From Branchiostoma floridae (Eukaryota > Chordata > Leptocardii > Amphioxiformes > Branchiostomatidae): a DNA stretch of 64,000 nucleotides. The first letter of the stretch is position 1; every line of letters begins with the position of its first letter. A program made the translations under genes and the position numbers. The DNA lies in NCBI RefSeq assembly GCF_000003815.2, contig NC_049993.1:1667275-1731274 (forward strand), written 5' to 3'. Below are positions 14,338 to 50,727 of the stretch, one piece after another. The notes below the pieces were generated by a model. The model was not told the DNA's origin. It saw only the letters and a list, made by a program, of their open reading frames with translations, and did not search any database.

Positions 14338-15065
14338 GCAAAACTACCGAGGTCACGGGTAAATTTCTCATCACTCGGTATCCAGTGATGAAGTCGCGTC
14401 GTCACTGGCTTACCAGTGGGGAATATCTATCGTCACTAGTTTTCCAGTGATGAGGAAACTTCAGCTGGTAAACCAGTGACGAAAATATTCAGTTTACTGA
14501 AGAAAAAGGAATCATCGTTTCAGTTGAGGGTATTTCAAAGTTAGCACTGAAAGTTATACTAACGTCGCCTCTGCAAGTCCTCACACTCCCGGACCGTAAA
14601 TCTAACAGTAACACGGCTATGGCGACATGTGAATTAGGGTACTGTTTTTGTTGCACATCAAACTCAGCACTGGAACGTTCTAGTGCTATTAGAACATGGT
14701 CACTGGAAGCCCAGTGCCGAAATAATTTCATCACTCGGTGTCCAGTGCCGAACAGTCACCCATCACTGGAAAACCCAGTGAGGAACCGGTGACCGCGATG
14801 GTTCCACACCCGGTGTCCAGTGACAAATGACGTTCATCACTGGGCCCCGAGTGAAGAGCGGAGTTCATCACTGGAAACAGAGTGACGAGTCAAGGTTCAT
14901 CACTGGAATTCCAGTGCCGAGGGAGCTTCATCACTGGAACAAAGCAATTAATCACTGGGAAACCACGAGCTTTCTTCGTCACTGGGCGTACAGTGATGAC
15001 GCCATTTTGAATATATTTTCGTCACTGGAAGCCCAGTGAGGAACCCGTGACCCGCGTAGGCTTGC
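14338..15065. mobile_element. Hairpin-array TIR element M1 (728 bp) in A2 intron
   Basis: It begins GCAAAACTACC and ends GCGTAGGCTTGC. The inverted termini share GCAA-N2-CTAC and then GGTCACGGGT. The target duplication GAGAATAAC (9 bp, perfect) lies at 14329-14337 and 15066-15074. The A4 intron carries the unoccupied site CTGAGAATAACTTCCTC near 23220. The interior has many short hairpins, TCACTGG-loop-CCAGTGA, around a 200-bp array-free centre. No ORF. The 9-bp duplication points to the Mutator (MULE) superfamily. Confidence 0.85.
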
Positions 15066-15323
15066 GAGAATAACTTCCTCATTTTCGGATTTAAGATTTA
15101 TACTGTTAGATCAGTACTATTCCAGAGTTGATTTTGTTAACATACTATCATATCAGTCATTACATTTCGATAAAATCAATTAAGGCACATGTTATATACA
15201 ATCTGAACTTTTTAAACGATGTTCAGCATTGTCCATTCCGACGAGATGTTTGACTTTTAGTTTAGTTCTTTGAGACAAATATGCATTTCTTATCGCGTAT
15301 TTATATCTATGTGTTCCTCCAGC

Positions 15324-16844
15324 ATGCCCATACAACAGCAGGAGTTCATATGTGGCCTCTCGCAAGAGGTGACCATAGCAGTCCTCCCCAGACTGACCAT
15401 GGAGGAGCTGATGTTTGAACTGAACAGAAGGATTCAAAACCTGGACAAAGAGAACAGCATCAAGGACAGACTAGTCAGTATCCTTAGGGACGTGATGTTG
15501 GAGGAATACCATCAGTTGGAAAGGAGATCACATGTCAGTTTTCCAGGCGAAACCGCCATATTTGGGCAAAATCATGGGACAGCTACCATGCAAGAGAACA
15601 TTTTGATTACGTACGCTGAAACAATGTTATCAGAAACTTCAAGTCCCGTCACCTCACAGCAAAGTTCTGGACTGGACATTGTGATTAAGAAGGAACGCGA
15701 TACAAGCAGAGAAGTGCTCATGCATACAGAGCCAAAGGATTTCGACTTGGATACAGACCAAATACAAACGACTGTTTCGGAACAAGATCGACTTTGTAAC
15801 ACGCCCGGTCCAGGCTCACAAACGTTTCCCTCGTTCAAAACCTCCCTGACACAAATGAATGTCACAGCAGACTCTCTCATTAAAGAAGAAGACATTGATA
15901 TGTCAGATGAGGACGCAGCATGTAGAGCTCGCCATGACGAGCTTGACATCGACACTTCTACATTTAGTATGCAGGTCTTGGATACACTCAATTCAATGAA
16001 TACGTCTTACTCAGAGACTCCAGTGGAAAGCAAAACAACCCGTGAGGAAGAACCTTCGGCTTCTTGTTATCTGCCTCCCGACAACGGTGACTTACATTTA
16101 AAAATGGAATGCCATGTGTCCCAGGATGATCAGAACAGGCAGATTTCTCAACCTTCAAACCCGGATCACACTGAACACTATACTGATGTCAGAGACACTG
16201 GTATAACTAACAACGGACACGAGCAGAGTAGAAAAGACAGTAGTGAGGAAACACCTTTGGCTCCTTCAGACCAGGATTGCGAGAGCATGGCGTCCCTTCA
16301 TCCTGACAATGGCTCACAAATCGGTTCCAAACGCCACATGTGCGAATTGAAAACATCATTTGTAAACAGCACCTCCAAGCGCAGAAAACGTCAAAAACCT
16401 TTCATGTGCGACGAATGTGGTTATAGGGCACGTCATAAGTACCGGCTTGTTGCACACATGAGAACACACACTGGCGAGAAACCGTTTAAATGTAATCAAT
16501 GCAACTTCAAGACGTCACATAAAAAATGTCTAGTCCAGCATATGAAAAGACACACGGACGCAGAACCTTACAGCTGCGAGCTTTGTGACTACCAGGCCTA
16601 CCAAAAGTCTCACATGGAAAGGCATATGATGTGCCACTCTGGTGTGAAATCCTTTAAATGTGAGGAATGTAACTACAGAACCACGCATAAGGGCGATCTT
16701 ATTAAACACATTAGACGTCACACCGGTGAGAGACCATACAGTTGTCAAGTATGTGACTACAAGGCAAAGGAAAGGGGAAAACTCAATCGTCATATGAGAC
16801 TCAAACACCCTCATGACTGTCAAAAGTCAAAACCAGCAAAATGA
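15324..16844 (+). CDS. Family A zinc-finger protein A2 (506 aa)
   Basis: Probable DNA-binding nuclear regulator. The start is the ATG right after the acceptor CCAG (15319-15322); the open frame upstream is intronic. Residues 7-66 form a conserved helical domain (FICGLSQEVTIAVLPRLTM, then ENSIKDRLVSILRDVMLEEY) of unknown family. Residues 67-340 are an acidic, Ser/Thr-rich linker with SUMO-type psi-K-x-E sites: IKKE (121-124), IKEE (186-189) and LKME (259-262). A basic patch KRRKR (352-356) may be a nuclear signal. Five C2H2 fingers occupy 360-495, joined by TGEKP-like linkers; the last has H-x4-H. Helix contacts (-1,2,3,6) are HYRA, HKCQ, QSHR, HGDK and EGKR. Intact and single-exon coding. The target is unknown. 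Confidence 0.88.
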   Translation: MPIQQQEFICGLSQEVTIAVLPRLTMEELMFELNRRIQNLDKENSIKDRLVSILRDVMLEEYHQLERRSHVSFPGETAIFGQNHGTATMQENILITYAETMLSETSSPVTSQQSSGLDIVIKKERDTSREVLMHTEPKDFDLDTDQIQTTVSEQDRLCNTPGPGSQTFPSFKTSLTQMNVTADSLIKEEDIDMSDEDAACRARHDELDIDTSTFSMQVLDTLNSMNTSYSETPVESKTTREEEPSASCYLPPDNGDLHLKMECHVSQDDQNRQISQPSNPDHTEHYTDVRDTGITNNGHEQSRKDSSEETPLAPSDQDCESMASLHPDNGSQIGSKRHMCELKTSFVNSTSKRRKRQKPFMCDECGYRARHKYRLVAHMRTHTGEKPFKCNQCNFKTSHKKCLVQHMKRHTDAEPYSCELCDYQAYQKSHMERHMMCHSGVKSFKCEECNYRTTHKGDLIKHIRRHTGERPYSCQVCDYKAKERGKLNRHMRLKHPHDCQKSKPAK

Positions 16845-16944
16845 CATAGGACTAGTTCCATTTGCAACGGAAATGACTTAATTGCTTCTGGAAAATCTCA
16901 GCATTTATTATTTTGCAAAGGAGATGGCAGCAAAAACAAATTCA

Positions 16945-17265
16945 CTCCTACTGTATTAACTGTACAGAAATACGAGTGATCTGAAGAGGCTCGTCATTAC
17001 CAACCCAACCGAGAGAAAACCTACTGGTGCACTTGCTGTGATTACCCTGACTGTTATAAGGCTCACATAATGTGCCAGAGACAGAGACCTTTTTCATACA
17101 GCGATTTTAGCATCAAGGCTCGTTTGGTTAAGAAATGAGGTGACATACTGGGGAGAAACCGTTCATATATAGTGATATTGGGTTTAAATCAATCCAGAAC
17201 AAACAACTAACAAAGCCAATAGAACGCTACACTTACACAAGATGTAATGGGCAACATTTTGGGCA
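16945..17265 (+). pseudogene. Decayed fingers in the A2 3' region
   Basis: Across frames one reads YWCTCCDYPDCYKAH, a degenerate RPFSYSDFSIKARLVKK and GEKPF-like remnants. It is homologous to 12160-12510. An ancestral longer finger array was cut back, leaving these in the 3' UTR. Confidence 0.6.
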
Positions 17266-17578
17266 CTAACCGATGTAAATACATGAGAGCACAAAATCCT
17301 TTAGATAAGCTGTGCTAGGTTGGTAATCCATTTCCTAATGTGTCAGACTGCCAGTGTAATGATTAGACGGAAGTCATGCAGGATTTCTTCTGTCAATCCA
17401 TTGTTGGAATACACACTCCATTCTGAAAGCGTTTTTAGTTGCAATGTTTGTTTGTAGTATAGAAGTTAAGTACAAAACTGTCGTAAATGAAGAGATCGAA
17501 ATTTTGCATTGGTTTCCGGCGATGCTAGTCATCATGCTTTATAGTTTTGTTCCTTTAATTTTCATACTTATTGATAGC

Positions 17579-17584
17579 AATAAA
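17579..17584 (+). terminator. Candidate poly(A) signal of gene A2
   Basis: AATAAA sits in a context (ATAGCAATAAAGTTGAACA) conserved in the 3' flanks at 12828 and, in part, 22532. Confidence 0.6.
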
Positions 17585-17720
17585 GTTGAACATCGGTACA
17601 GTTGTATATTCATTTGTCAAGAAAAATACAACTAGAGTTCCACAACCTCATACTTTCTCTACATGGTGTTTATCTTTAGGACTTTAACATACCTTTACAA
17701 AAACTATGTACCAAAAGCAA

Positions 17721-18236
17721 TTTTTTTGTGGTTCTCCTGTCGATTGGACAGATGAGGAGGCAGACAGGCTTTTTGCCTGTTTGCCTGACCTGCACATTAC
17801 TTTTTATGGTGAAGGAGGGGTGTGCAATTCCTTCTCCACCCTCTCGTCTACTGGAGCACTAAGTTTCACAGGGGCAACCGTATGCAACGTGTGAGTCGGC
17901 TCCAGCAGATGCAGCTTTGTTGTTCGGAGTATCCGTCTCCTAGGAGGACTTCCAACCAAGGATGTAAGGGGTTCCTCCTACCCCCGACTCGTGTGCCATG
18001 GCGGGTGCCACTCATGCCCGAACATGCCCCTAAAGCCTGTCTCGGTTACAAAGCCCCACCAAGGCCACACAACGCCACTAGCCGCAGCTAGATACTAATT
18101 TACACCTGAGTGAAGTGAGGAAAGTGGTGTAAAGTGCCTTTCCCAATGGCACAAGATCGGTGACACGGAAGCTGGATTCGAACCCGCAACCTCTCGGTCT
18201 CGAGCCGCAAATGCTGCCACTGCGCCGCGCGGTCCC
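17721..18236 (-). mobile_element. Full-length tRNA-derived SINE (516 bp)
   Basis: Minus strand: a tRNA-like head at the right end with box A (GGCGCAGTGGCAGC) and box B (GGGTTCGAATCC), a long body, and an A-rich tail (CACAAAAAAA) at the left end. The target duplication AAAAGCAA is at 17713-17720 and 18237-18244. The paralogous 3' flank near 12966 (CCAAAAGCGAACTACC) is the empty site. It is long for a SINE. No ORF with recognisable motifs. Confidence 0.8.
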
Positions 18237-18785
18237 AAAAGCAAACTACGACGATCCTTAATGGGGAGTTATTTTTTCTCTGTCCAAATATGTTTTTAAT
18301 AAAACTGATATAGAGAGAGGGAGAAGTATATCATCGTTAAGTTTATATACATAATTTCAAACAAAGTTGAACACGACATATGAAAACCGGGAGGTCTGCT
18401 GCAGTAGGACAAAATGTCATTAGTACTGACATAATCCATGACCGAAATTTTTCTTCATTTTGGTGACTTCTAACCACATACTAAATATTATCAATATCCA
18501 CCCACGGATCGAGTTATGCTGTCAAGAAATACAACCACTCTCCCATAAACAAATGGCAAGTGTAACGCAACTGCGAAGGCATTAAGCTTCGAATCAGATC
18601 ATTTCTTTTGATTCAGTTAAAAAAGAAAGAACGATCGGTATGATAGGTTTTTTTAAACATGGGCATTCTGCATTATGAGTACGTAGATATAAATTTAGTA
18701 GGTGAAAATGTAGAACCTCAATACTGTGTCAGCTCTATATACTGATACTATTTGGATAACCGGGTTGGTGCGTCTGACCCTGATT

Positions 18786-18909
18786 CTAACCTTTGACCCA
18801 GCTTGATGTTTTTGTTTCTGTCAGCCATTTTTGTTCGAAATTTTGCGGGCATCTAAGGAAGAGTCAATTTACCCCACATTCCGTCTGATGTTTCGGCTAG
18901 AAAGCAGGT
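18786..18909 (+). promoter_or_regulatory. Gene A3 promoter motifs and 5' non-coding exon
   Basis: A diverged DR1-like TAACCTTTGACCC (18786-18798) and YY1-like CAGCCATTTTTG (18821 on). The exon ends GAAAGCAG at 18907 with donor GTAGGG. Element M2 begins only 17 bases beyond the donor GT. Confidence 0.55.
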
Positions 18910-18925
18910 AGGGGATAAACGCAGT

Positions 18926-20130
18926 GCAAGTCTACGAAAACCTCGCCTTCCGCACTGGTGTTCCAGTGCTGATTCAATTGCCTGAACGGCCTCAGCACTG
19001 GTTTTCCTGAAATTATTTCAGCACTCGTTTTCCAGTGCTGATCGGCCTTGTTCGAGTACTGAAACTCCCTCAGCACTGGTTTTACAGTGCTGAATTCGTT
19101 TTCCAGTGCTGAACTTCTGTCAGCACTCGTTTTCCAGTGCTGAAATGCCGCCAGCACTCGGTTACCAGTGCTGAAATCCGGGGATATCGGGGCCGGCCAG
19201 GTCAAATGTCATTCAGCACTGGGTAACCAGTGCTGAAACTGCCGTCCGCACTGGAACCGAGTGCTGATATACAAAAACCTCGCCTTCCGCACTGGATTTA
19301 CCAGTGCTCGTGAAATCTTCAGCACTGGAAAACCAGTGCTGACGTCTTTTAAGGACTGGAACGATGTGCGAACCAGTGCTGACGTCCTTCCAGCACTGGC
19401 ATCTCCCAGTGCTGAGAGGGGTACAAGACGTAAATTCGAAGGAAAAATAAGTTATTTCGTGCAAAGAAAATTGTAGTTGTGCTATCCATTCTTTATGTAA
19501 TTGAATATATGTATACTGTATAAGGGATATATATCATTTATAAAATGAATGAATGAATGAAGACCTTTATTGCACTTTTTTTTATAAAGTGCTGATAGCG
19601 GTACTAGTAAAAGGACGCAAATTTGATTAAAGTTACTTCGTGCAAAGAAAACTTCGTGTAAAGTTGTGTATTTTATTCGTTGTACATGTGTAACTGAAAA
19701 GTAGATATATGTATATGTGTAGGAGGTGTTTAAGGGATAGCTATCATTATAACAATAAGCAACTTTTCAGTATAATCCAGCAATGTCTTAAGTTTTAGTA
19801 GTAGAGCAAAGGACGTATCGTAATTCCGAATTACTGTATACTTAGTATCTCGGAGTCTCCCGATCTCTCAGCACTCGGTTTCCAGTGCTGAATGTTCTTC
19901 ACTGCACTAGGTTTCCAGTGCTGAATGTTCGTCAGCACTGGAAATCCAGTGCTGAATGTTCGTCAGCACTCGGTTTCCAGTGCTGAAGCCGGCGTTTCGA
20001 GTGCTGAGGGCGCGTCAGCACTGGTTTTCCAGTGCTGACGAACATTCAGCACTGGAAATCCAGTGCTGACGCCATCTTCAGCACTGGGTCCCAGTGCTGA
20101 GAAAGGAGGGCGAGGTTTTCGTAGTTTTGC
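18926..20130. mobile_element. Hairpin-array TIR element M2 (1205 bp) in A3 intron
   Basis: Termini GCAAGTCTACGAAAACCTCG and its imperfect inverse ending CGTAGTTTTGC. The perfect 9-bp target duplication AAACGCAGT is at 18917-18925 and 20131-20139. Two hairpin arrays (about 18950-19420 and 19865-20105) carry roughly 20 copies of CAGCACTGG-loop-CCAGTGCTG, with frequent CACTCG/CGAGTG arm variants and loops of about 3-6 bases. The AT-rich centre (19430-19860) lacks hairpins and ORFs. A partial internal copy of the subterminal sequence (AAAACCTCGCCTTCCGCACT) lies at about 19273. MULE-like by its 9-bp duplication. Confidence 0.88.
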
Positions 20131-20534
20131 AAACGCAGTTGCTTACGCAGATTTGAAAGAAATATGTGGTAGTTTTGGTTTGCCAATTTCTAGGACGTAA
20201 ATGTGAGGAGGGTGGGGGGAGGGGGGTGTTGTGGGTAACCACTGCAATTATGTTCCATACTCACTCCATGCAATCTTTTATGTAACGTTCCGAATGGTAG
20301 ATTTTCATTTAGTTGTACAACGTAACATTATGATCAGATCACACTCAGTAATACAACGATTATAACCATAAGTGTTAAATTTGGGAATCATGAACACTGA
20401 TGGCGAATTCCAACATGGGAATAGAAGTTTTCTGCATTCATTTACATTCTGTAATAGATTTAGTCTAATAGAGGTTTTCCCGTTGTGCATGTGCATCCTA
20501 ATGTATGCTTACGTTTATGGACATGTCTTTCAGC

Positions 20535-22043
20535 ATGTCCAGACAACAGGAGTTCATCTGTGGCCTCTCCCACGAGGTGACCATAGCAGTCCTCCCCAGA
20601 CTGACCATGGATGAGCTAATGATTGAACTCAACAGAAGAGTTCAAAACATGGACAAAGAGAACAGCATCAAGGACAGGCTGATCAATTTCCTTAGGGACG
20701 TGATGTTGGAGGAATATCGTCAACTGGAAAGAGTATCAGAAGTAAGTTCTCCAGAGGAAACGAGCATACCCTTGCGAGACCAGGAGACAGCTACCATGCA
20801 AGAGAATGTTCTGAGTGCGTACACTGAAACAATGTTATCAGAGACGTCAAGTCCTGACACCTCACAACAGAGTTCTGGACTGGACATTGTGATAAAGAAG
20901 GAACGCAGTGACTTGTTCGTGCCCCAGTTTGATACAGCGCCAAGTGGCGCAGAGCAGGTGCAGCTGACTGTTCCACAACAAGATCAACTTTGTAACATTC
21001 CCAGTCCACTGACAGGTTCACCAACGATTCCTTCATGCGAAATACCCTTGACACAAATGAATACCATAACTGACTCTTGCATTAAAGAAGAAGATGTTGC
21101 TATGCCAACTGAGGATGAAGCAGTTAGAGCTTGTCATGGTGACCTCAACATTCACACTCCTATATCCAGGTCTCAGGAGCCCGATACACTTAATCTGATG
21201 AATACTTCTACTTGTTCTAGGACAGATAGCCACGTGGAAAGCGATACATGCCTGGCTTCTTGTCAACTGCCTCCAAACCACGGTTACGTACATACATGTA
21301 TAAAGATGGAATACCATGTGTCTGAGGATGATCAGAACGCACAAATTTCTCAACCGTCAAACCCGGTTCAAACTGAACACTATACCGATGACAGAGACAC
21401 TGGTATAATCAACAGCGGACACGAGAAACGACAGACTAGAAAAGACAGTAGTGAGGAAACACCTTTGGCTCCTTGTCAACCGACTTCAAACCAGGATTGT
21501 GAGAGCATGGCGACTCTTCGTCCTGACAATGACTCACAAATCGGTTCCAAACGCCACATGTGCGAATTGAAAACATCATTTGTAAACAGCTCCTTCAAGC
21601 GCAGAAAACGTAATAAAGGAGAAAAACCTTTTACGTGTGGGGAATGTGGTTACAGGGCACGTCATCAGCGTCGTCTTGTCGAACACATGAGAACACACAC
21701 CGGCGAGAAACCTTTTAAATGTAATCAATGCAACTACAAGACGTCATTCAAAACGAATCTTGGCCAGCATATGAAAAGACACACGGACGCAGAACCTTAC
21801 AGCTGCGAGCTTTGCGACTACCAGACCTATCGAAAGTCTCACATTGAAAGGCATATGATGGGCCACTCTGGTGTAAAATCCTACAAATGTGAAGAATGTG
21901 AGTATCGAACAGCTGACAAGGCCAATTTTTACAGACACAGCAGGCTTCACACCGGTGAGAAACCCTACAGTTGTCAAGAGTGTGACTACAAGGCAAGACA
22001 GAAGTTCAACCTCCTCAGGCATGTGAAAAGGAAACACCTGTGA
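20535..22043 (+). CDS. Family A zinc-finger protein A3 (502 aa)
   Basis: Same architecture as A2. ATG follows the acceptor TTTCAG (20528-20533). Residues 7-65 are the conserved N-terminal helical domain (ICGLSHEVTIAVLPRLTMDE on). Residues 66-345 are an acidic linker with psi-K-x-E sites IKKE (120-123), IKEE (183-186) and IKME (256-259). A basic stretch KRRKR lies at 355-359. Five C2H2 fingers span 366-501 ([19 protein letters not shown] through [19 protein letters not shown]). Contacts (-1,2,3,6) are HRRE, FTNQ, RSHR, DANR and QFNR. They differ from A2 at most positions while the framework is nearly unchanged. Intact. A poly(A) signal AATAAA lies at 22532-22537. Confidence 0.88.
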   Translation: MSRQQEFICGLSHEVTIAVLPRLTMDELMIELNRRVQNMDKENSIKDRLINFLRDVMLEEYRQLERVSEVSSPEETSIPLRDQETATMQENVLSAYTETMLSETSSPDTSQQSSGLDIVIKKERSDLFVPQFDTAPSGAEQVQLTVPQQDQLCNIPSPLTGSPTIPSCEIPLTQMNTITDSCIKEEDVAMPTEDEAVRACHGDLNIHTPISRSQEPDTLNLMNTSTCSRTDSHVESDTCLASCQLPPNHGYVHTCIKMEYHVSEDDQNAQISQPSNPVQTEHYTDDRDTGIINSGHEKRQTRKDSSEETPLAPCQPTSNQDCESMATLRPDNDSQIGSKRHMCELKTSFVNSSFKRRKRNKGEKPFTCGECGYRARHQRRLVEHMRTHTGEKPFKCNQCNYKTSFKTNLGQHMKRHTDAEPYSCELCDYQTYRKSHIERHMMGHSGVKSYKCEECEYRTADKANFYRHSRLHTGEKPYSCQECDYKARQKFNLLRHVKRKHL

Positions 22044-22531
22044 AACTACTAGTACTGTCAGTTAAAGCCAGAGATAATATCACATATGTTTATTTACGTT
22101 TAATATTTCCTTTTTTTTTGCTGCATAAAAAACAGATATAAAACGTGATAAACATTTCTTGTAGCAACCATTTATTTGTTCGTTTATCTTATGTATTTAT
22201 TCAATTATGTTTTGCTTATTTCTGTTTTTCTTGGCCAGGATAGACTAGCACAGTGACTTGTACTGGTCTAAGGTGGTGTCTTGAAAAATGATAATTGGAC
22301 AATTTCAAAGTGTTCGTAGTGGTGCTTTTGGGGCTAGAGAGTAGTTTTAGAACTTGTATTTTAAGTCCAACTCCAAATATTTAGTACAAAATTTCTGTTT
22401 GTTTTGTTTACAGAAAGGTAAAGGAAGCAAAATAGAACAATGCTTAAGACTGCATACTAGTATATTCTAGTATTCATTTCCAATAATGCTTCATAGCATG
22501 TGTCTGTGTGTCCCCATACTTTCCAACAGAA

Positions 22532-22537
22532 AATAAA
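22532..22537 (+). terminator. Candidate poly(A) signal of gene A3
   Basis: AATAAA in AAAATAAAGTTGAACAT, sharing the downstream GTTGAACAT with the A2 signal. Confidence 0.55.
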
Positions 22538-22670
22538 GTTGAACATGTATGCCCACTACTGTGTAAATATCTTGTGAAAAATCAAGCTATAAAGTGTTTT
22601 TCCAGACCCGTAGAGTTGGTCTATGTACATGTAAGTCTATCATTTGGGTAATCAGTGGGCACAACCATAA

Positions 22671-22799
22671 TGACCTTTGACCTCAGCACATTTTCTGTGT
22701 CAGCCATATTTCCTTTGTTCGAACTCCAAGCCAAGAAGAGGTCTTGGCTTCAAAGGAAGAAATCATTTCACCCTCATCCGGCAAGGATTTAAACCAGGT
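22671..22799 (+). promoter_or_regulatory. Gene A4 promoter motifs and 5' non-coding exon
   Basis: A perfect DR1 arrangement TGACCTTTGACCT (22671-22683; two AGGTCA half-sites with one spacer on the other strand), then YY1-like CAGCCATATT (22701 on). The exon ends TTTAAACCAG at 22797 with donor GTGGG. The intron runs to the acceptor at 23469-23470 and has a GTGGGGAGGGGGGCATCC tract near 22914. Confidence 0.6.
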
Positions 22800-23471
22800 G
22801 GGATTCTAAACCTCATCATGCTAAACAAGACTTCAAGAATCGACTTAAAATTCAGATTTTTCGTAAATAGATCGCTTATTAATAAATGAAGTCTGTTTGT
22901 GGGTGTTGATCGATGTGGGGAGGGGGGCATCCAAACGAAACAGAATTCGCAGTTTTGTTCCTCGCGTAAAGCTTGTTTCACCTTTTAGGTTACTTAGTAT
23001 TGAATTAGGCAGAGACCTCGATGCTAATAAACAATCTAGTTCTGTGTAGGATAAGTACTGTGTAAATGTACGCTGTGCTCAATTTCGAATCTATTAGTGG
23101 AAGAAGAGGTCGTATTACACCATATTCAATATTCATGTTGGGATATACTAAGTTACATAGACTGGAGGGGTACTAACAGCTGTCATACTCTTGTAACATT
23201 TCACTTCATGTAAACCTTCTCTGAGAATAACTTCCTCATTTGCAGACGTATTTTTGCTGTTAGATGAGTACTATTCCAGGTTGATATACTGTTCACATAC
23301 CATCAGATTTCTTCTTCTTCAATTGAGGTCATATGGTTTAACTGGTGGATTTGAACGCTAACATTTTAGCAGAAGAATTTCCATTCCGCCAAGGTGTTCA
23401 GCTTTAGTTCTCTGAGAAAAATGTACATTTCATAAAAACTCGCTTTTCTTATATCAATGTTGTCCTTCAGC

Positions 23472-25289: not shown

Positions 25290-25425
25290 AAAAAATAGTG
25301 CACTGAGTTTGTCAATAGCATGGCTATTGGCACACTGAGTGTGCTAATAGCCTGTTTAGGCTATTGACACAGTGAGTGTGTCAATAGCCTGTTTAGGCTA
25401 TTGACACACTTTAGTTTATATTCCA
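25290..25425. repeat. Fragment of a GGCTATTGACACA hairpin array
   Basis: Three to four palindromic modules built from GGCTATTGACACA and TGTGTCAATAGCC, separated by CTGAG or TGTTTA. The same module makes up the ends of the element at 54495-55537. No flanking duplication was found here. Confidence 0.7.
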
Positions 25426-27112: not shown

Positions 27113-27480
27113 GGAATTCAGAACATCACGTGGGGTAAACAAGGACGATGTTTCGTCCCTCACCTCTTAGCGACAAATCGCATTCCATGCCGTATTGCAT
27201 ACCTTCAAACCTTGGGTGGTGTACGTATATATAAAATTGAAACCAACTGTGAAACACCAGCACTGGCTAACATCTAAGGTTCCAAATTCAGATTTAAAGT
27301 CGATAAGGGCACCTTTTTCAATAGTGTAGGTTGAACGTTCTACACAATAAAGGGTAAGCAGGTTTCACATGACCTTTCCCCTCACAGTTCCTGTCACCTT
27401 TCATCCCTTGCTGCTCCAGACAGACGGCAAGCTTGCAGAACGATTGTGCAGAGGTAATAATCAACACTGGAAGCGGGTAA
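27113..27480 (+). promoter_or_regulatory. Gene B1 upstream region and 5' non-coding exon
   Basis: Homologous to 42838-43192 before B3. DR1-like TGACCTTTCCCCT lies at 27370-27382. The exon ends at GGAAGCGG (27476) with donor GTAAGAACG, conserved in all five B units. A second donor-like GAGGTAATAATC lies about 25 bases upstream and is also conserved. TATATATAAAA at 27226-27236 could be a TATA box but is not kept in B3. Confidence 0.55.
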
Positions 27481-28229
27481 GAACGATATTTACGTACAAC
27501 ATAACTGCAGTATCATGAACCATAGGGGGTAGAGGTCATTTCTATGGTATGTGGGCTACATTAAGCAGGATGCAAGACTTTTCGGGGTGACGAAGATGGG
27601 GCTGGGGAGGGGGGGGGGCATCCTTTACTTTCACGGAAACAAAAGAAGCACTATCACCATGGTAACTGGAGGTGTAGCAGACATCCTGTGGTGTTCGGTT
27701 ACATGTATAAAGTGCCAGGACAAAGCTCGAGGGGCTGGATCATGAATGTGTTTATGTAAGACTAAACAGATCTTGTTTCAAACGGCTAGTCTATTGGAAA
27801 GGCCACCTATAAATCTACTCAAGATGTCACTGAGGTCATTTAGGTCATTGGGAGAGTCTACTATAATATGGGTAACACTCTTATGAGGGGTAATTAGATA
27901 TGAGATGTAGCCAATCACAAAAATCTTAGAACTAAAATGCACGATAAAAAATAATCCCTTCTTAGGAATAAATTGCTTATTAATCATCTTTATCACCCCC
28001 TGTCCCTTCATAGTAAACATGTGTAGTAATGACATGAAACATATTTATTGGACAAATATATATTTTGTAATTGGAAAATCACAACAAACAGAACCAGCAG
28101 AAAAAGATAGAAAATAGCCTGTTAGGCTAGTCCATGTTGAGATAAACATCATTTGCTTGAATTAAACTATCTAGTCTAGATTGTTCTATTTCTTCTTTTC
28201 TAATATATTTTTATTCAGTTAGGTATGCC

Positions 28230-31952: not shown

Positions 31953-32302
31953 TATAGATAGCATTGGCTATAAGAAGCTCGGTTAATTCAAGATATTTTC
32001 ATTCATGGCAAGTGAGAGCTGGTGTTATCAAAAGTAGAAGTTACAGTATATTTTGTTTCATTTGGAAACATTTGATTGATTGTGTCGACCATAAAAAATC
32101 AGATCTTTTATTGTTAATTTTATTTTTACGATGTACATATAATCAGACGATAAACTAAAATTCCCTTATAACTATAATGATAATCCGTATACATTTGTTT
32201 GAGAAGGAAAGAAAGAAAACTGACCAAATATGAGACGGGAGTGGCCTCCTGTCATGTAGGCAGCGCTTTTAGCACATTAAATGGGTAACGAGGTAAACAA
32301 AA

Positions 32303-32412
32303 TGACCTTTAACCCTCAGATTGTTCACCTTTCATCCCTTGGAGATTCAGACAAAGGCTTGCAGGATTGGAAGATTGCGAGGAGGTGAAAATCAAAACTG
32401 GAAGCAGGTAAG
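32303..32412 (+). promoter_or_regulatory. Gene B2 promoter motif and 5' non-coding exon
   Basis: DR1-like TGACCTTTAACCC (32303-32315). The exon ends CTGGAAGCAG at 32407 with donor GTAAGAACG. A GTGGGGAGGGGGG tract follows at 32532-32544 in the intron. Confidence 0.6.
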
Positions 32413-32565
32413 AACGCGTAATTTACAAGAAATAACGCTCTTATCATGAAGCAGAGATTGCATAGGTCATTTTATGGTGTATGGGCCGCATCAGGATAAT
32501 ATGTGTCACTTTTCTTGGTTACGAAATAGATGTGGGGAGGGGGGCCAAGTCACACGCCAAGTATA

Positions 32566-38928: not shown

Positions 38929-39063
38929 GTGTATCGCCCTTCTGATTGGTCAGAATGAATCGACACCGGCACCGGTGTCGATTTGCATCGACATCGCCAC
39001 CAGTGTTGATGCAAATCGACACCGGTGTCGATTCATTCTAACCAATCAGAAGGAGCGATACAC
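38929..39063. repeat. Long imperfect palindrome (about 65-bp arms)
   Basis: GTGTATCGCCCTTCTGATTG... is mirrored by ...CAATCAGAAGGAGCGATACAC. The centre has nested CGACACCGG-CA-CCGGTGTCG and TGCATCGACA/TGTTGATGCA hairpins. Probably a fold-back MITE. No flanking duplication was assigned. Confidence 0.7.
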
Positions 39064-41289: not shown

Positions 41290-41905
41290 GGGGGCGTGGC
41301 AGCCAATCAGCGAGCCCGGTGTTATCTGGAAGAGTCCATTCTTACACGGAGGGGTTCATTTTTTACAGAATGTGTGCTGGAAGAGTCTATTCTCGCACGG
41401 AGGGGGGATTTTTCAAAATTCATATTTTGGACTTTGGTGACTTCTAGTTTGTCAAAGTCTTTCAGTAGGGTTATTTTTGGACTGGTCTAATTTGCAATTT
41501 TACATGGGTGTTCTGGAAGAGTCCATTCTTGCATAGAGGGGGCTTTTTTTTAAATCCATTTTTTGGACTTCAGTGATTATGTCAAAGTCCTATTTTAGCG
41601 GATGTATTTTTGGACTGCTCTACTTTACATGGAAGAGTCCATTTTTTGCACACGGAAGGGGGATTTTTTCAAATTCAGTTTTGAACGGGTGATGATTCAA
41701 AATTCAATTTTAGTGGAAGTGTTTTTAGACTGGTCTATTATACCTTTTTATGCACTGGGACCTTTTTTGCTAAATTCAATTTTGGATTTGGTTTCTTATT
41801 CAAAAGGCCAAGGTTTCAGTGGGAGTATTTCTGGACTGGTCTATTGTGCAAATTCACATAGGGTGCACTGGAGTCCATTCTTGAACGGGGGAATTTTGTA
41901 AGACT
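41290..41905. repeat. Diverged tandem repeat with GGAAGAGTCCATTCTTGC
   Basis: Copies begin near 41325, 41382, 41515, 41633 and 41870, with CACGGAGGGGG and GGACTGGTCTA modules between. The period varies from about 57 to 240 bp. Confidence 0.65.
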
Positions 41906-42029
41906 CATTTTTGGGTTAAACCGTCATTAGTAAAAGTGATTTTTCAAATGGGTGATTTTGAAATAGCCTATTGTTGCATGGGGAGGGAGATGGCTGAAAT
42001 ATGCTGTATTTGCTCTCAAGCAAATGTCG

Positions 42030-42790
42030 GCCTTTCTAGTTTATTTATTGATCTTTAGGGTAGTCCCTTCAGTTAACGTAGTAACTGATTTCCAAGGGAG
42101 CCCTATAACAATAATAATAACTCAACGTACAAAAGATAACTACTAACATAGGATTGAGCATAACAAAGCAACAATCAAATTCGGGTTTGTAAATCATATA
42201 AGCAACTTAGGAACACTCAAAAGAAAAACAAAAACAACTCAAGATCACAAACTCATAGGGTCATTGGACGGTCATTGCGGTCAGAGGTCAGTGCCATTTG
42301 TCCTGATCAATCGGACTGAACATAAGAAAGAATAATCCAATTCGGATCAGTAAATCATATACGCAACTTACTAATAGCAACTCATACACAATAACAACTC
42401 AACATCACAAAAATCATAAGGTAATTGAACAGTCATTGGGATCAGAGGTCAGCGTTATGATATCAGAGACTGTTTAAAGGCTTTAAGAGTAGTTGCTTGT
42501 TTTGTCTCAGGTTTAAGTGTATTATATATTTCAGCTGCCCTGCATGCAAATGTGCGTTGACCTGCTCTTGAAGTGTAGTTAGGTTTATGTAGGAGTTGTG
42601 CTTGTCTGGTGTTATGACTGTGGATTTGGTTATTGAAACGAAATGTGTTGAGTAGGTAGTTGGGTGCTAGGCCATGAAGGCATTTGTACACCATAATGCA
42701 GATCTGCCGAGTTCTTCGCTCCTGCAGCAGACTCCAACCCAGTGTCTGATGCAGCTCCCCAACATTCGACCTCGGCTCACGTCGGAGGAT
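42030..42790 (-). mobile_element. LINE 3' fragment
   Basis: Minus strand 42694-42455 reads MVYKCLHGLAPNYLLNTF, then HNTRQAQLLHKPN and LKPETKQATTLKAFKQSL, the C-terminal end typical of many CR1/L2/Crack-like reverse transcriptases. Upstream the frame is recognisable as LGWSLLQERR to about 42790. The 3' UTR extends to about 42040. No catalytic domain. Confidence 0.75.
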
Positions 42791-42837
42791 GATTCGAATT
42801 AATTAATGAATTAGAAGAAGAAATGTGGCGTGTCAAG

Positions 42838-43192
42838 GGAATTCAGAACATCACGTGGGTGAACAAAGACGATGTTTAGTTACTCACCTCTTGGCGACAA
42901 ACGTCATCCATGCTGTATTACCAACTTCAAACCTTGGGTGGTGGTGTATGTATATGTATAGGTGAAACCAACTGTGAAACACCAGCAGTGGCTAACATCT
43001 AAGGGGCCAAATTCAGATTTAAATAAAACGGGCACCTTTTTCAATAGTGTAGGCGGAACGTTCTACACAATAAAGGGTAAGGAGGTTTCTCATTACCTTT
43101 CGCCTCACAGTTTCTGTCACCCCTTGGTGCTCCACACAGACGCAAAGCTTGTAGATTGTGCGGAGGTAATAATCATAACTGGAAGCAAGTAA
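42838..43192 (+). promoter_or_regulatory. Gene B3 upstream region and 5' non-coding exon
   Basis: Homologous to the B1 upstream region. A decayed DR1-like TTACCTTTCGCCT (43093-43105). The exon ends GGAAGCAA at 43188 with donor GTAAGAACG. A GGTGGGGAGGGGG tract follows at 43321 on. Confidence 0.5.
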
Positions 43193-43576
43193 GAACGAGA
43201 TTTACGCACAACATGACTACGTTATCATGAACCAAAGGGGGTATACATGTAGGTCATTTCAGTGTTATGTGAGCTACAATTTGGGCGAAATGAAAGATTT
43301 TTCGGAGTAGCGAAAATAGGGGTGGGGAGGGGGTCATCTTTACCTTCAAGTTAACAAAAGAAAACATTGTTTTTGCTTCGTGTATTCTAATTCTACCGCT
43401 TCTTCTTCGCCAAAAGATAGGGTAAGTAAATTGGCAAGACCACTAGCTGTCACTATGGTAGCTGGAGGTGTAGCAGACATCCCGTTTTGTTAGGTTGCAT
43501 GTAGCAAGTATCAGGACGGAGATCGAGGGGCTGGATTATGAATGTGTTTCTGTAAGACTTAACAGATCTTCTTTAA

Positions 43577-44515
43577 CCCTCAAGCACCGGACCTTTTTTT
43601 GCGACTAAAATGACCGAGTGGGGTCCAAACGGACCCCAAAATATTTTGTTCATAAAATCTCAGTACCATTTCTTATCGGCGATCATTGTATATACATTGC
43701 TTTGTCAATGTAAGAGGAAGATTTTGAGATGTTAAGGTGTTGCTAATTCCAACCCATCATCATAATTTATGCAAAAGTTCAGAAGGACCACGTTTTGCAC
43801 TAAACCTATTCCGACCATGTGCATAACTCATGAACGGCTAGAGCTAAAGCTACGAAACTTGGTAATTTATCACAAAATATTGTTTGCAAAAGTTTTTGGT
43901 CAATAAAGTACGTTTATCATTTTTGTGGGTTGCCATGGCAACCATATTCTAACAGGCATATTTTTTGCCAAATTTGACAATTTCAATTTAAACAAGGTTT
44001 TCTTGGTAAACTACACCTGTTTTCTGACAACAATTAAATTCTATGAAATTCAATGTAATTTTCATGACTTAAAATTTTTAAATTTTGCTAATTCCATGAC
44101 GTCATTGGTCAAATCCAAGATGGCCGCCCTGATTAGGCAAATGACGTCATAATGTCGTCACATTACATGTTGATGACACAGAAATTTTTTGTGATGATTT
44201 AGGTGTACATTCCTATTATTGTCTGAATGTTTGGTAGTCTTACTGTAAGTGGTTAAGGAGTTAGCCTCCAAAGTTTGTTTTAAAAAACTGCACATTTTTG
44301 CTGGGGTCCGTTTGGACCCCAGAGGGACTGAACACAAGCTTTCTTTATAATTTCCACATCATTGTACCAATCGTTGCGAAAACATAGGAGAAGATATAAG
44401 ACATATTGACTGACAAAGTCACGGAAGGATTTTTTATTCAGATCAAAAAAGGTTCAAATGGCACTTCAAAATGTACGCCTGGGGTCCAAATGGACCTCAC
44501 TCGGGTGTTTGAGGG
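43577..44515. mobile_element. TTAA-flanked, CCCT-ended element, probably a piggyBac MITE (939 bp)
   Basis: Left TTAA-CCCTCAAGCACC, right GGGTGTTTGAGGG-TGAA. Subterminal palindromes GGGGTCCAAACGGACCCC (about 43620) and GGGGTCCGTTTGGACCCC (about 44303). The B1 intron near 27778 is the unoccupied homologue. CCCT ends and TTAA targets are the piggyBac signature; the right duplication is TGAA, presumably mutated. No ORF of note. Confidence 0.65.
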
Positions 44516-44875
44516 TGAAAACGGCAAGTCTATTGGAAAGGCGACCTATAAATCTACTCAAGATGCCACTAAAGGCACTTAGGTTATTGGGAGGCTCTAC
44601 TGTAAAGTGAATGGCACTTTTATGACGGGTGATTTACTATGAGCTAGCTGGAGCCAATCACAAAAGCTTATGGAAGCTGTAAGGATATGATAAACTATCC
44701 CTTGTAATGAATACATTACTTATATCATCTTTACCAAATCCTGTCTCTTTGTGGTGAACTTGACTAGTATATTTAAAACAACGAACAGTAAAAGGAAACA
44801 ACACCTAACCATAAATAGCTTGTTAGGCTTGATTATTTAATCCTTTCTGATATTTTCTGTTCCATTAGGTACACA

Positions 44876-45466
44876 ATGGCAGAGGCAGGTAATGGGTCTC
44901 CTACTGCTGATTACCAGCGTTTCAGCGAGAAGTATCCTACTGGTGTTTTATACAATGATGCAAGCAAAGCCAAAAACCAGCCAACAACGAGCAAAACCAG
45001 TTTGGTCAATCATCCGGAAGCAAACACTGATGGGAAACCCTACATGTGTGGGGAGTGTGGTTACAGAGCGGTTCAAAAATCTACCTTATACTTACATATG
45101 AGAACACATACTGATGACAAACCCTACAAGTGTGACCAGTGTGACTATTCTGCTTCAAGAAAATCCAGTTTGGACCAACATCTAGCCAAACACACTGGTG
45201 ATAAGCCCTACATGTGTGGGGAGTGTGGGTATAGGACATCTCAGAAATCTTATTTATCCAGACACATGAGGACTCACACGGGCGACAAACCCTACAAGTG
45301 TGACCAGTGTGACTATTCTGCTGCACAAAAATCCAACTTGGACAGACATCTAGCAAAGCACACTGGTGATAAGCCATACATGTGTGAGGGATGTGGGTAC
45401 AGTACAAGTAAAAAATCTGCCTTATCCCTACACATGATGAGAACCCACCCAGGAGAGAACCTCTGA
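44876..45466 (+). CDS. Family B zinc-finger protein B3 (196 aa, 5 fingers)
   Basis: ATG follows the acceptor TTCCATTAG (44861-44869). The leader (MAEAGNGSPTADYQRF...) is related to that of B1. Five fingers alternate the odd and even types, the last H-x4-H (LSLHMMRTH). Contacts (-1,2,3,6): QSTL, RSSQ, QSYR, QSNR and KSAL. The final finger has the same helix as the final finger of B1. The frame ends PGENL-stop where B1 ends TGEKP-stop, and both are followed by homologous decayed fingers. Shortest intact member of the family. Confidence 0.85.
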   Translation: MAEAGNGSPTADYQRFSEKYPTGVLYNDASKAKNQPTTSKTSLVNHPEANTDGKPYMCGECGYRAVQKSTLYLHMRTHTDDKPYKCDQCDYSASRKSSLDQHLAKHTGDKPYMCGECGYRTSQKSYLSRHMRTHTGDKPYKCDQCDYSAAQKSNLDRHLAKHTGDKPYMCEGCGYSTSKKSALSLHMMRTHPGENL

Positions 45467-45700
45467 AAGTTTGACCTGACTTTGTGACTTTCTGCTTCTT
45501 AAAGGAACGTCTAGCCATGCGTAAGTTTGAGAAACCCTACTCGAGGGTCAAGAACAGGACAGCTCGGAAGTCTACGTTGCCGAAAATATGAAAATTCATA
45601 AATGGGGAAACTCTACAAATATGGCCAGCGGGACTATATTCTGCAGCACACAAAACATCTTCTTGGATAAACATTGTAAAGCACTCCCTTTCAAAAACAC
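45467..45700 (+). pseudogene. Decayed fingers after B3
   Basis: Homologous to 29160-29400: remnants of CDF, HLAMR, GEKPY and a last SSLDKHCKA-like end, with stops and frameshifts. Confidence 0.65.
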
Positions 45701-46690
45701 CACATTTCTTTATTATGTGATTTCATAACATCTAAAAAAAGCTCCTTTATCCGAACAGACAGCACACCAGTGATGTATGTCATCTAGCTGTAATGAACAA
45801 TTATGGTTAAATCTAAATGCGTAGTCGGTGGAAGAATAACTCTACAACGAAATCATTTACTCGTAGAGATATACCGTTTTTTTGTAACATGCATGTTAGA
45901 AGAACACAATACAATGCTATTTGACTAAGTTGGGGCATTGATCTTGTTTTGTGAAGTGAGCTTCTGTGACATAAAATGTTGTTTTAGTTATTAATGGCTG
46001 ATATGTAAGAACATATCAACTAATTAGTGAAAATAAAGTTTGATAAAAGGACACATTCTTGTGAAGTGTGCCTATGTGACATGGAATGTATTTTCAGTGA
46101 TGTCTGATATGTAAGCACATGATTTATTAGTGAACATAAGTAAGTTTGATTCCATTCTAATTCCATTCCATTGTCTCTTGTGTGGTAGGTGGCACAGTGT
46201 GGTGCTGGTCGTACAATTTCACAGGTCAGATTCATTTTCATAATACAAAACTGTAGTTCACAATTATGTTGTTGGTAATAACTAATGGGCCAAAGTACAT
46301 ATCTCTACCGCCTAATTAGGTACCAATTAAGTCACGTTACATAGATCAGAACGCACGTGAGGTGACTGGAATTCTTAAGCAGCTAACTTTGTGCCATAAT
46401 CCTTGAACTTTTGAGCTTCAATCAGAATGACAGGTGCACAATGTAGCTTGAAATGAGAGACTGTGATGATTATTTAAACACTGTTTCACTAACCTATAAA
46501 TCATACACCATATATTAGTATCGCCAGCATTGAATATGTAATAGTATATTGATGATTATGCTGAACCTGTGTTAAACATTTTAAAAATATTTAGTGATCA
46601 ATGTGTTAAATAAAACGTAGTTTGTATGAATAGTAGATAATGTAGTTGTGTGACTTGCATGTTTGTAATAACAACTTTCGACGACCTCAT
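45701..46690. other. B3 3' flank
   Basis: Shared with 29401-30110. It also contains GCAGCTAACTTTGTGCCATA followed by CTTCAATCAGAA, which recurs after B4 and B5. No gene. Confidence 0.5.
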
Positions 46691-47774
46691 ACCTCCATGA
46701 AATATTGAGACCTTTTGTAAATGTCATGCAAATGACTAACCATTTACATAATTTATGTATGGCGATGTTCGTTATTGACTAACGTACACATGTCACAAGT
46801 ATAAAATTCCCATCATGAGTCATTATGCGGATTTGCTATTTTTGTATATATTATGCAAATCAGTTCCTCATTTGCATATTTGGTATCTGCTTATGTTTCA
46901 CCTATCATAATTACATGTTACATTTACTGAAGTTCAGCTATTAAAAACAATGGAATTGTACAATTTCTTCATTAATCATGCAAATTAAGTCCTCATATGC
47001 ATAAAATGTATATCATTATGAACATCTTTGCTTAAGCTACCTGCATGCCAAAAATGATGTCAATCCATCATTCCTTTCTATAGTTATCCTCTTTGGAGTG
47101 TCTTGACAAAAACGCCCCTGCAGTTCCAAAATTAAGTGTTAGGAGGCTGAAACTTGCCCCACTTTGTCATGACGTTAAAAGCTATCTACCACCCACATGT
47201 CAAAACCATATTATGTCCGGTACAAGAGATGCATTAAAAAACTGCTATGATAGAATAAACTCATTTATTATGCAAATGTAATCTAATTTTGCATGATTAG
47301 TTTATGCAAATGTATCTAATTTTGCATGATTAGTATTTTATCTTGTATAACATTGTCTAAGGTACCTACATACCAAAAATCATGAAAATCCATTGTTCCC
47401 TTCTTGAGTTATCCACTTCAGAAGTTTTTTAACAAAAATGCCCCTGCTATCGCCAAACTTGACGCTAGGGTGCCCAAAATTATGTCACTTATTCCTGAGC
47501 ACAAGAGCTATCTAACACCTAAAAATTGGGACCATATCTTGTTCGGAACATGAGATAACAAAACCAGAAGTTGCGCTGCAGTACCAAGGATAGCCGCTAG
47601 GGGGCCCAAAATCTAATCACTTTCAGCTTTCATCACACCTCACCAACACACCAAGTATGAACCTAATCCATCCAGCCATTCTTGAGTTATCTTGTTGACA
47701 GACAGACAGACAGACACACACACACACACACAAACGCTGGTGAAAATATAACCTCCATGACATTTCATGGAGGT
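46691..47774. mobile_element. TIR-bounded repeat element with internal tandem units (1084 bp)
   Basis: Termini ACCTCCATGAAAT / ATTTCATGGAGGT (13 bp perfect). Three diverged internal units each contain CCATT-TTGAGTTATC-like and AAAATGCCCCTGC-like words. A (GACA)n(CA)n tract lies at 47696-47732. The right end is a small hairpin (ACCTCCATGACATTTCATGG on). No ORF. Confidence 0.65.
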
Positions 47775-47795
47775 AAATATAGATAACATTGACTA

Positions 47796-48672
47796 ACATC
47801 CATTGGCATAATACCGGCAGGTTTACTGAAATTTCTCAAGCAATACTAATTTGGCAAATGATCAACGCATCATTTTCTCCAGTTACATGTTGCTGTTACA
47901 GCTTACCTTTGCCACTTCTTCTGTGTATATTTTTTTGTCTCTCTTGTCCTGCTAAAAACATAATATCGTAATTGGAACACACCGCGGAATCGCACGGAGA
48001 ACGGGCGCGTGGTTGGAAGGGGGTGCAATAATACCGGCAGAACGAAACACGGCACAATTTACTGCCGCTATGTACCTTTAGTTTATACATCCTTCCTTTC
48101 CTGTTAGTAATTGCACAAAACAAAAACCTGCGTGAGCATACAAAAAGTCAAGAGAAAATTGGCGTATACTGACAAGAATTTTCATTTACTTTTGGTCCGT
48201 CACAACCGCTATGACGTAAAACTTTACTGCTGGCGTAGCATTAAAAATGGCGGGAAAATGGCGGCGTACGTTCAATTTGACCAATTCAGCCGTAGATCCG
48301 GGCGATAATGCAACGGTTCTTCACCCTTTTACACGAGTTGTTGGTCAGCAAAAGAAATTCAAGATTGCTGTTGAATCATGCTCGTCTTGTGCCGTGAGCA
48401 CGTGTGATTATTATCCACAAATCTTGCGATGAACTTGACAGTGTGTTCGTCCAACGACGAGCTCGCCTGCCCCGATGAACTGCAAACTTTTAGCCTCGTT
48501 GTCTTCGAATGCACTGTTTTCGAAGCCTTTTTGAAAATGTGTGAAATACGTGGGTGTCTGAAGTGTGCATACCTCGGAAATTACTGTTGCTACGCTAGTG
48601 GATCACCGAAAATTTATCGTTTATGTCATTTGCCGGTATAAGTATTACTGCCGGTATTATGCCAATGGATGT
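47796..48672. mobile_element. TA-flanked TIR element (877 bp)
   Basis: Ends ACATCCATTGGCATAATACC (then GGCAG) with a perfect inverse on the right, flanked by TA on both sides (47794-47795, 48673-48674). The B5 upstream region (AGCATTGTAAATGTAGATTAG) is the empty site. Tc1/mariner-type by its TA duplication. No recognisable transposase. Confidence 0.75.
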
Positions 48673-48991
48673 TATATGTAGATCGGTTAATTCAAGATAT
48701 GTCCATTCATAGAAAGTGAGAGATGGTGTTATTAAAAGTACAAGTTACAGTATATTTTGTTTTGTTTGAAACGTTTGATTTATTGTGTCGGCCCTAAAAT
48801 GTCAACTCTTTTATAATTATTTTTTCTTTACGATGTATGTATCAGTCGATAGACTAAGAATTCCTTATGGCTACAATGATAATCCTTGTACATTTTTTTT
48901 TTAGAAGGAAAGAGAGAAAACCGAAGGGAAGTGTCTTCTGTCATGTCCGCAGCGGATTTAGCACATGAAATGGGTAATGAGGAACACAAAA

Positions 48992-49099
48992 TGACCTTTA
49001 ACCCTCAGATGTTAACCTTTCACCCCTTGCTGCTTCAGACGAACGCTTGCAGGATCGGAAGATTGTGTGGAGGTAACAATCAACACTGGAACAGGTAAG
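48992..49099 (+). promoter_or_regulatory. Gene B4 promoter motif and 5' non-coding exon
   Basis: DR1-like TGACCTTTAACCC (48992-49004). The exon ends CTGGAACAG at 49094 with donor GTAAGAACG. M3 lies 67 bases further on, inside the intron. Confidence 0.6.
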
Positions 49100-49161
49100 A
49101 ACGCGTAATTTACAAAAAATAACGCTCTTATCGTGAAGCAAAGACTGTATAGGTCATTTTT

Positions 49162-50727
49162 GCAAAACTACGAAAGCTTCACCCTCCTTTTTCAGCACTG
49201 GAAACCAGTGCTGAAGATGGCTTCAGCACTGGAAACCGAGTGCTGAATGTTCGTCAGCACTGGAAAACCAGTGCTGACGCGCTCTCAGCACTGGAGACGC
49301 CGGCTTCAGCACTGGAAACCGAGTGCTGAATGTTCGTCAGCACTGGAAACCGAGTGCTGACGCTCTCAGCACTGGAAACGCCGGCTTCAGCACTTCAATG
49401 CGTTTATATTGAGTGGGTCAGTTTACCTGACACCATTAGTATTCACCAGAATCGACATGGCTACTGCGATATCTATCACAAATTGACACAATAAATTTGT
49501 TTGCAATCCCGTTTTAATGATATCCATTCCTTATACATTTCAATTATACAAAACAACACAAATTCAGGCTTTTTTTGCATCTGTATCTATCTTACGTTAT
49601 ATCAAAACCGCCGTTCGGCGTAACACACCAGCTAAAACTGCATAAACTTGAAAAATCATCTTCGTTGCTGTGGAGACCACCAACCACTTCCTGTACCACT
49701 GCCCTCGCTATGAAAAGGAAAGACAACACATGCTGCTAGAATTCGAAGTGGAGAATATATATGAGACATACAACACAGCAGAGGACAGCAGAGACACGGA
49801 CATCACTACGCTTGCTGGAATGAGAGAAGACCGTTCAGAAGGAATCAACAAACAGATGTACATGGCCTTCTCCCAGTACATTGAGAGTACACACCGTTTC
49901 GACATGCTCTCCTAGAAACTCCTCCAGCAACTCTCAAGCACAAGGAACCAAGAGTTAAATACCAAGAGAGACTATTGACTCAAATGCAAGCCATGTGTTA
50001 CTCAGCACCAAGAGGCCACGTCTAGCGAAATAATAGACGTTAAACGAGGACAACAACAACAACAATTAGTACCGTATATAGTACCGCTTTCAGTACTTTG
50101 TATCTATACTCTATACATACACCAAGTTACACATTAAATTGAATAGCACAACCAAAAGTTTAACTTTATATTTAATCAGTATACGTCAAGTACCGCTCTC
50201 AGCACTAGGACACTCCAGTGCTCGAAAGACTTCGGCACTGGTTTGAAGAACGTTCCAGTGCTGAAAAGACGTCAGCACTCGTTTTCCTGTGCTGAAGATT
50301 TCTCAGCACTGGTGTTCCAGTGCTGAAGTGCCCCTGAGCACTGGAAAATCGAGTGCGGAAGGCGAAGCTTTTGTATATCAGCACTCGGTCCCAGTGCTGA
50401 CGGCGGTTTCAGCACTGGGTAACCAGTGCTGAGTGACCTTTGACCTGACCCGTCGCCGCCAGGGCCGCGAGTTCAGCACTGGAGCCGAGTGCTGACGAAC
50501 ATTCAGCACTGGAAAACGTCTTTTCAACACTGGAAAACGAGTGCTGACGTCTTTTCAGCTCTGGAAAACGAGTGCTGAGGGAGCTTCAGCACTGGAGAAA
50601 GGCCGATCAGCACTGGAAAACGAGTGCTGAACATTCTTCAGCACTGGGCGCCGAGTGCTGAGGCCGATTCGACCATTGTTTTCAGCACTCGGTTCCAGTG
50701 CGGAAGGTGAAGCTTTCGTAGACTTGC
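49162..50727. mobile_element. Hairpin-array TIR element M3 (1566 bp) in B4 intron
   Basis: Termini GCAAAACTACGAAAGCTTCA and the inverse of GCAAGTCTACGAAAGCTTCA (about 26 bp, 3 mismatches). The perfect 9-bp duplication GTCATTTTT is at 49153-49161 and 50728-50736. The B2 intron near 32470 (AGGTCATTTTATGGTGTATG) is the empty site. Arrays of CAGCACTGG-loop-CCAGTGCTG (49193-49395, 50195-50710) match M2. A LINE fragment is nested in the centre. Confidence 0.88.
49655..50070 (+). mobile_element. LINE 3' fragment nested in M3
   Basis: ETTNHFLYHCPRYEKERQHM is the C-terminal knuckle of a LINE reverse transcriptase (H-x4-C). It ends in an (ACA)n tail (GACAACAACAACAACAA). 5'-truncated; target duplication not resolved. 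Confidence 0.65.

Follow-up and report, generated by a model that had tools for sequence, protein, structure and literature searches.

Arrays of a 10-bp half-site form the arms of a foldback-like DNA transposon family in the lancelet Branchiostoma floridae

A 64-kb stretch of contig NC_049993.1 of the lancelet Branchiostoma floridae (the window, 64,000 bp in all) contains three DNA transposon copies without a transposase gene, M1, M2 and M3, which belong to one family and represent its three main subfamilies, S1, S2 and S3. An earlier note on this DNA described them as being built from hairpin arrays. Our comparison of the three with further copies from the genome favours reading their arms as arrays of a half-site instead of hairpins, with a conserved core, nearly conserved spacing and one base, base 4, switched between S1 and S2/S3. 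We consider it probable (roughly 0.6) that the arms are a docking array for a putative protein with shifted specificity, either the transposase of the element or an accessory DNA-binding protein.

Half-site identity, spacing and pairing

The repeated unit is the 10-bp half-site TCA[T/G]CACT[G/C]G together with its mirrored partner, and the information is concentrated there. The earlier note had placed hairpins at 30–45 bp; the repeat is present but more regular than that, as half-sites in the window mostly alternate in orientation at 16 and 15 bp, giving a period of 31 bp. Across 54 elements, CACT[G/C]G core sites number 360 in S1, 461 in S2 and 751 in S3, where about 10, 16 and 39 are expected. 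The median count in 12 S1 copies is 20 for the R arm and 6 for the L arm, compared with 25 and 11 in 31 S2/S3 copies, and the longest site-free gap has a median of 205 bp in 12 M1-type copies and 555 bp in 31 M2/M3-type copies. For the subfamily consensus sequences we kept 45 of the 54 elements, with a minimum length of 680 bp in S1 (12 copies) and of 850 bp in S2 (12) and S3 (21). When viral and bacterial collections were scanned with the pattern, single matches numbered 1 and 8, about the chance level (bacterial estimate 7–8), and they were not used.

M1 carries the array TC[A/G]TCACT[G/C]G in its L arm (14361–14488) and a half-site array in its R arm (14661–15043), which is collinear with its counterparts in M2 and M3. 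In M2 the R arm (18948–19418) is an array of TCAGCACT[G/C]G and the L arm (19868–20103) is likewise a half-site array; in M3 such arrays fill the L arm (49191–49394), which includes an 83-bp tandem duplication, and the R arm (50200–50704). All arm limits are approximate. The middle of M3 spans 49420–50190; within it, 49664–49912, judged by eye, resembles the tail of a long interspersed nuclear element (LINE) protein followed by a ACAACAACAACAA run, and there is no Pfam match there. The M2 and M3 R arms (19170–19212, 50433–50470) also carry AGGTCAAATGTCA and AGGTCAAAGGTCA, which resemble a direct repeat 1 (DR1) nuclear-receptor site.

The arrays are homologous between subfamilies. Reverse-complemented M1 is collinear with M2 and with M3, one in 300 unit shuffles being as good in each case, and the arrays of M2 are homologous to those of M3 once M3 is reverse-complemented, which corrects the earlier note. 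When the half-sites are masked, the order of the spacers still matches beyond shuffles (as good: 4 of 5000 for M1–M2, 0 of 5000 for M1–M3), so the homology is independent of the motif. Re-amplification of a single unit in each subfamily was considered as an origin and is disfavoured because the spacer order is shared.

For base comparisons, a single subfamily was used to define the half-sites. Between S1 and S2/S3, base 4 differs at 22–23 of 26–27 homologous half-sites, and at 20–22 of them S1 has T where S2 or S3 has G. By comparison, the CACT core differs at 4–9 of 104–108 positions, and loops and spacers at 80–82 of 149–155, about 53%.

Spacing is held more closely than spacer sequence. Computed over both arms, the distance from one shared core site to the next is the same in 21 of 25 cases for S1–S2, 17 of 23 for S1–S3 and 24 of 27 for S2–S3; of the 13 that differ, nine do so by 1 bp and four by 21, 21, 32 and 33 bp, which is close to two or three turns of the helix. 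Irregular spacings common to at least three elements lie near a 10.5-bp ladder (n = 21; none of 20000 random sets does as well), and those among them without a hidden decayed site do so with a mean cosine of 0.59 (n = 10; 76 of 20000). For spacings common to at least two elements the mean cosine is 0.48 (n = 12; 189 of 20000). No such phasing is seen in spacings private to a single element (n = 26, mean cosine −0.06); these are probably mostly later damage and therefore serve as an internal control. This test on clusters over 54 elements replaces one on hand-deduplicated events (P 0.004–0.01), and we regard the helical-phase result as suggestive. Replication slippage, which the earlier note had offered as one origin, probably built the array but does not on its own explain near-constant spacing with diverged spacers.

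Hairpins are frequent in the window: by our criterion it has 59, whereas two Markov controls have 7 and 11, and 23 of the 59 lie inside M1, M2 and M3. The arrays reported earlier are thus real, while the middles of the elements are not hairpin arrays. Elsewhere in the window, another hairpin repeat, of 37 bp (AGGCTATTGACACACTSAGTGTGTCAATAGCCT), forms two arrays, at 25322–25410 and 54500–54594.

Functional pairing predicts that changes in one hairpin arm are matched in the other. We looked for such covariation in M1, M2 and M3, in the consensus sequences and over the 54 elements, and did not find it. Compensated changes number 2, 0 and 0 in the inward pairs of M1, M2 and M3 and 0, 1 and 0 in the outward pairs, with 0.26–2.47 for permuted partners; in total 3 changes are compensated and 99 one-sided, a half-site being able to count in both pair types. 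Complementarity between hairpin arms does not exceed that of permuted arms, whether over the subfamily consensus or over the 54 elements. In S1 it is even lower, and the arms differ systematically at base 3, the first arm having G and the second A in 6 of 12 consensus units. Half-sites that lack an inward partner keep the base 4 of their subfamily (T at 82 of 94 in S1; G at 256 of 270 in S2/S3). Single strands do fold much more strongly than shuffled ones (z −10.9 for 49191–49380 and −6.9 for 14698–14999), which follows from the alternating orientation of the repeats. The hairpin as the working design is therefore not supported, whereas the broader suggestion that the arrays look like a working part is.

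Elements, ends and copies in the genome

M1 (S1) occupies 14338–15065 (728 bp) on the minus strand, as set by the R end GCAAGCCTAC at its right, and is flanked by the 9-bp target duplication GAGAATAAC (14329–14337 and 15066–15074). M2 (S2; 18926–20130, 1205 bp) lies on the plus strand, with its R end GCAAGTCTAC at the left and the duplication AAACGCAGT at 18917–18925 and 20131–20139. M3 (S3; 49162–50727, 1566 bp) is again on the minus strand, its R end at the right, between copies of GTCATTTTT (49153–49161 and 50728–50736). The element coordinates, GCAA-NN-CTAC termini and three perfect 9-bp duplications in the earlier note were all exact. The 10-mer GCAANNCTAC occurs six times on the two strands of the window, and these are the six ends of M1, M2 and M3.

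Unoccupied paralogous sites, which the note had also claimed for M1 and M3, were located on the plus strand at 23213–23305 for M1 and at 32164–32562 for M3, the latter with 85% identity across the junction. A second, more diverged site for M3 lies at 53823–54235 (plus strand) and a further weak one at 27396–27614. The empty sites hold the single 9-mer or a close form of it. For M2, no empty site was found within the window. All three elements end 164–372 bp upstream of C2H2 zinc-finger open frames (starts 15261, 20502 and 50891); 22 of 100000 random triples lie as close, for a distance chosen after seeing the data.

We searched the 513-Mb genome, in which the window lies on contig C15, for the end patterns, with reversed patterns as controls. 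The M2/M3-type pattern has 159 exact matches and the M1-type pattern 165 at up to one mismatch, while both controls gave 0. A 9-bp duplication, perfect or with one mismatch, flanks 42 of the 55 end pairs read: 28 of 34 M2/M3-type pairs (32 fetched plus M2 and M3, picked for an exact match at both ends), 13 of 20 additional pairs (15 M1-type and 5 M2/M3-type, two short and doubtful) and one additional M1-like copy, whose duplication is perfect. The 13 pairs without one include two short doubtful pairs (111 and 161 bp). A lack of further copies, or of 9-bp duplications beside them, had been named beforehand as grounds for giving up the proposed family; copies are in fact abundant, and the genome-wide data support one transposon family with 9-bp duplications.

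Each of the 34 M2/M3-type pairs combines one GCAAGT with one GCAAAA end, which gives two kinds of end as in M1, M2 and M3; R (GCAAG) and L (GCAAAA) ends are distinct. The terminal block beside GCAANNCTAC is subfamily-specific and of the same class at both ends in 39 of 39 M2/M3-type elements. A degenerate copy of the R terminus also lies inside each element, in M1 within a unit at 14763–14803, in M2 at 19270–19308 (plus strand) and in M3 at 50349–50380 (minus strand); wherever the search pattern found such a copy in M2/M3-type elements, it matches the class of the terminal block (30 of 30). A further subfamily, S1b, is represented by L117 (C17:15153354–15154114), with the R-end block GAAAGTCACGGGT and S1-like half-sites. 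No description of these elements was found by title in the open-access literature.

Possible roles of the arrays

A docking array, the simplest account, would work as follows. Each half-site would be bound by one DNA-binding domain of a dimeric or oligomeric protein. The 31-bp repeat, about three helical turns, would place equivalent sites, bound as inverted pairs, along a single face of the helix. The arms could then offer a filament on which the transposase, or an accessory protein encoded by the element, docks, and so help to bring the element ends together. The difference at base 4 would then record a shift in the specificity of this protein, to which most sites have adapted. That about 20 dispersed arm sites followed the change site by site, with spacing and phase held, is a more tentative proposal, to which we give slightly less than even odds.

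There are precedents. In Galileo, secondary transposase-binding sites are reported within the tandem repeats of the long arms, with reference to work then submitted, although the Galileo repeat is about 210 bp and the element belongs to another superfamily, P (PMC3573991). The VANDAL elements of Arabidopsis carry in their non-coding parts tandem repeats of a short VANC-binding motif that differs between related elements (PMC5735166, PMC10398659).

Several points weigh against a docking array. None of the 27 MULE-domain matches in the genome (MULE, Mutator-like element) was shown to lie between matching ends, which leaves the binding protein putative. Base 3 differs as well, at 14–15 of 26–27 sites, and base 4 is mixed in S1 (T 81%, G 15%), so the change is neither complete nor limited to one base. 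The alignment itself favours putting cores in one column, and the strict phase set is small (n = 10), with a best period of 11.0 instead of 10.5. Short-patch conversion among half-sites could mimic selection, and the binding partner of the array may be a host protein.

The first of these last two alternatives would leave the arrays without function: tandem duplication would have built them, and short-patch conversion or template switching at quasi-palindromes would have homogenised the half-sites and spread the motif. The tandem duplication in the M3 L arm shows such a process, and the agreement of the terminal blocks and internal copies indicates that something keeps copies in step. Conversion would, however, have to be confined to patches of about 10 bp and leave their neighbours untouched, as spacers and loops a few bases away are not homogenised; it would not hold interval lengths, and private variants common to paired arms, which arm-to-arm copying predicts, are not in excess. 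We therefore think this explanation unlikely.

Equally unlikely, in our judgement, is that the array binds a host protein, namely a transcription, chromatin or silencing-related factor, for expression or for escape from silencing. The comparison here is with the plant VANDAL elements, whose VANC-bound arrays have such a role through a protein of the element itself. VANC motifs are densely arrayed and diverge together between related elements (PMC5735166). A subfamily-wide change at base 4 is hardly explained by a host factor, and VANC motifs stand in one orientation and evolve by repeat gain and loss, whereas the lancelet half-sites alternate and their motif changed while the interval map mostly stayed. 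An element-encoded accessory protein is covered by the docking array. That the hairpins themselves work, as cruciforms extruded in DNA or as folded RNA, is the least probable explanation, since strong folding of single strands stands against uncompensated changes, the base-3 mismatch in S1 and the subfamily base kept by unpaired half-sites.

Affinities and significance

We class the lancelet elements as foldback-like and probably of the Mutator group. The MULE-like assignment in the earlier note agrees with the 9-bp duplications in the 42 of 55 pairs, which fall within the 8–11 bp of MULE target duplications; this feature is the one basis for a putative membership, and no MULE-domain match could be tied to these ends. 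The 27 matches (PF10551), some in long open frames, stand out against a 2019 survey in which MULE transposases were not detectable in B. floridae (PMC6446971). By eye, and for R ends only, 0 of 76 S2/S3 ends lie within 20 kb of such a match. One match (C9:5211586) lies between a facing S1 R end (C9:5201605, exact, 10 kb away) and an S1b L end (C9:5228736, 17 kb away); these ends are 27 kb apart with end blocks of different type, and the stretch from the R end runs into N.

No autonomous copy with a transposase was found in the genome survey. An 11.8-kb S3 copy (L059+L060, C5:19152023–19164092) with a perfect 9-bp duplication was scanned in six frames against Pfam in two halves, the join left out, and gave no transposase domain and only a Myb_DNA-bind_4 (Myb/SANT-like) fragment, so it is not shown to be autonomous. 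A 4.2-kb copy (L046) contains a 600-amino-acid open frame with a reverse-transcriptase domain.

Like foldback elements, the copies have long inverted arms of short tandem repeats; inverted pairs between the arms of M3 reach 91 nt at 78%, with 31-bp repeats. Among the closest published parallels are two foldback-type members of the Mutator superfamily, Tm1 of root-knot nematodes and Tetris of Drosophila virilis, with mostly 9-bp duplications (Tm1, 45 of 53 at 8–10 bp; Tetris, 8–10 bp) (PMC3169594, PMC4079207). Both share with the lancelet elements short or longer tandem repeats in the arms and non-autonomous copies, and Tm1 also two different terminal motifs, A1 and A2. However, the 13–15 bp repeats of Tm1 are described as tandem and the repeats of Tetris are named TIR-220; the lancelet elements are set apart by the inverted-pair unit, its 31-bp period and near-constant spacing, the subfamily base switch and the lack of a linked transposase. 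Rehavkus likewise combines a 9-bp duplication with inverted repeats of 26–400 bp and a minisatellite before its 3′ end (PMC6446971), whereas the lancelet arrays stand beside both ends. It has a PHD-finger transposase and is listed for arthropods and annelids (PMC6446971). Plant MULEs with tandem terminal repeats have an extra internal copy of the terminus in amplified copies (PMC3310237); the lancelet internal copy differs in being seen in the R arm, without the outermost bases.

Apart from the family, the window contains a near-perfect 116-bp palindrome at 38938–39053, which resembles a miniature inverted-repeat transposable element (MITE), and a reverse-transcriptase fragment (RVT_1, 5.4e-23) on the minus strand at 10136–10603.

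No settled explanation exists for the long repetitive arms of many transposons. The approximately 320 counted ends in this one genome are natural replicates for separating sequence, spacing and orientation, and the evidence favours half-site identity and geometry over hairpin pairing. The predicted effects of phase and of base 4 are directly testable. If the arm sites did follow the change at base 4 site by site, the lancelet arms would be the fossil of a specificity shift and hence a record of cis-trans co-evolution inside a DNA transposon.

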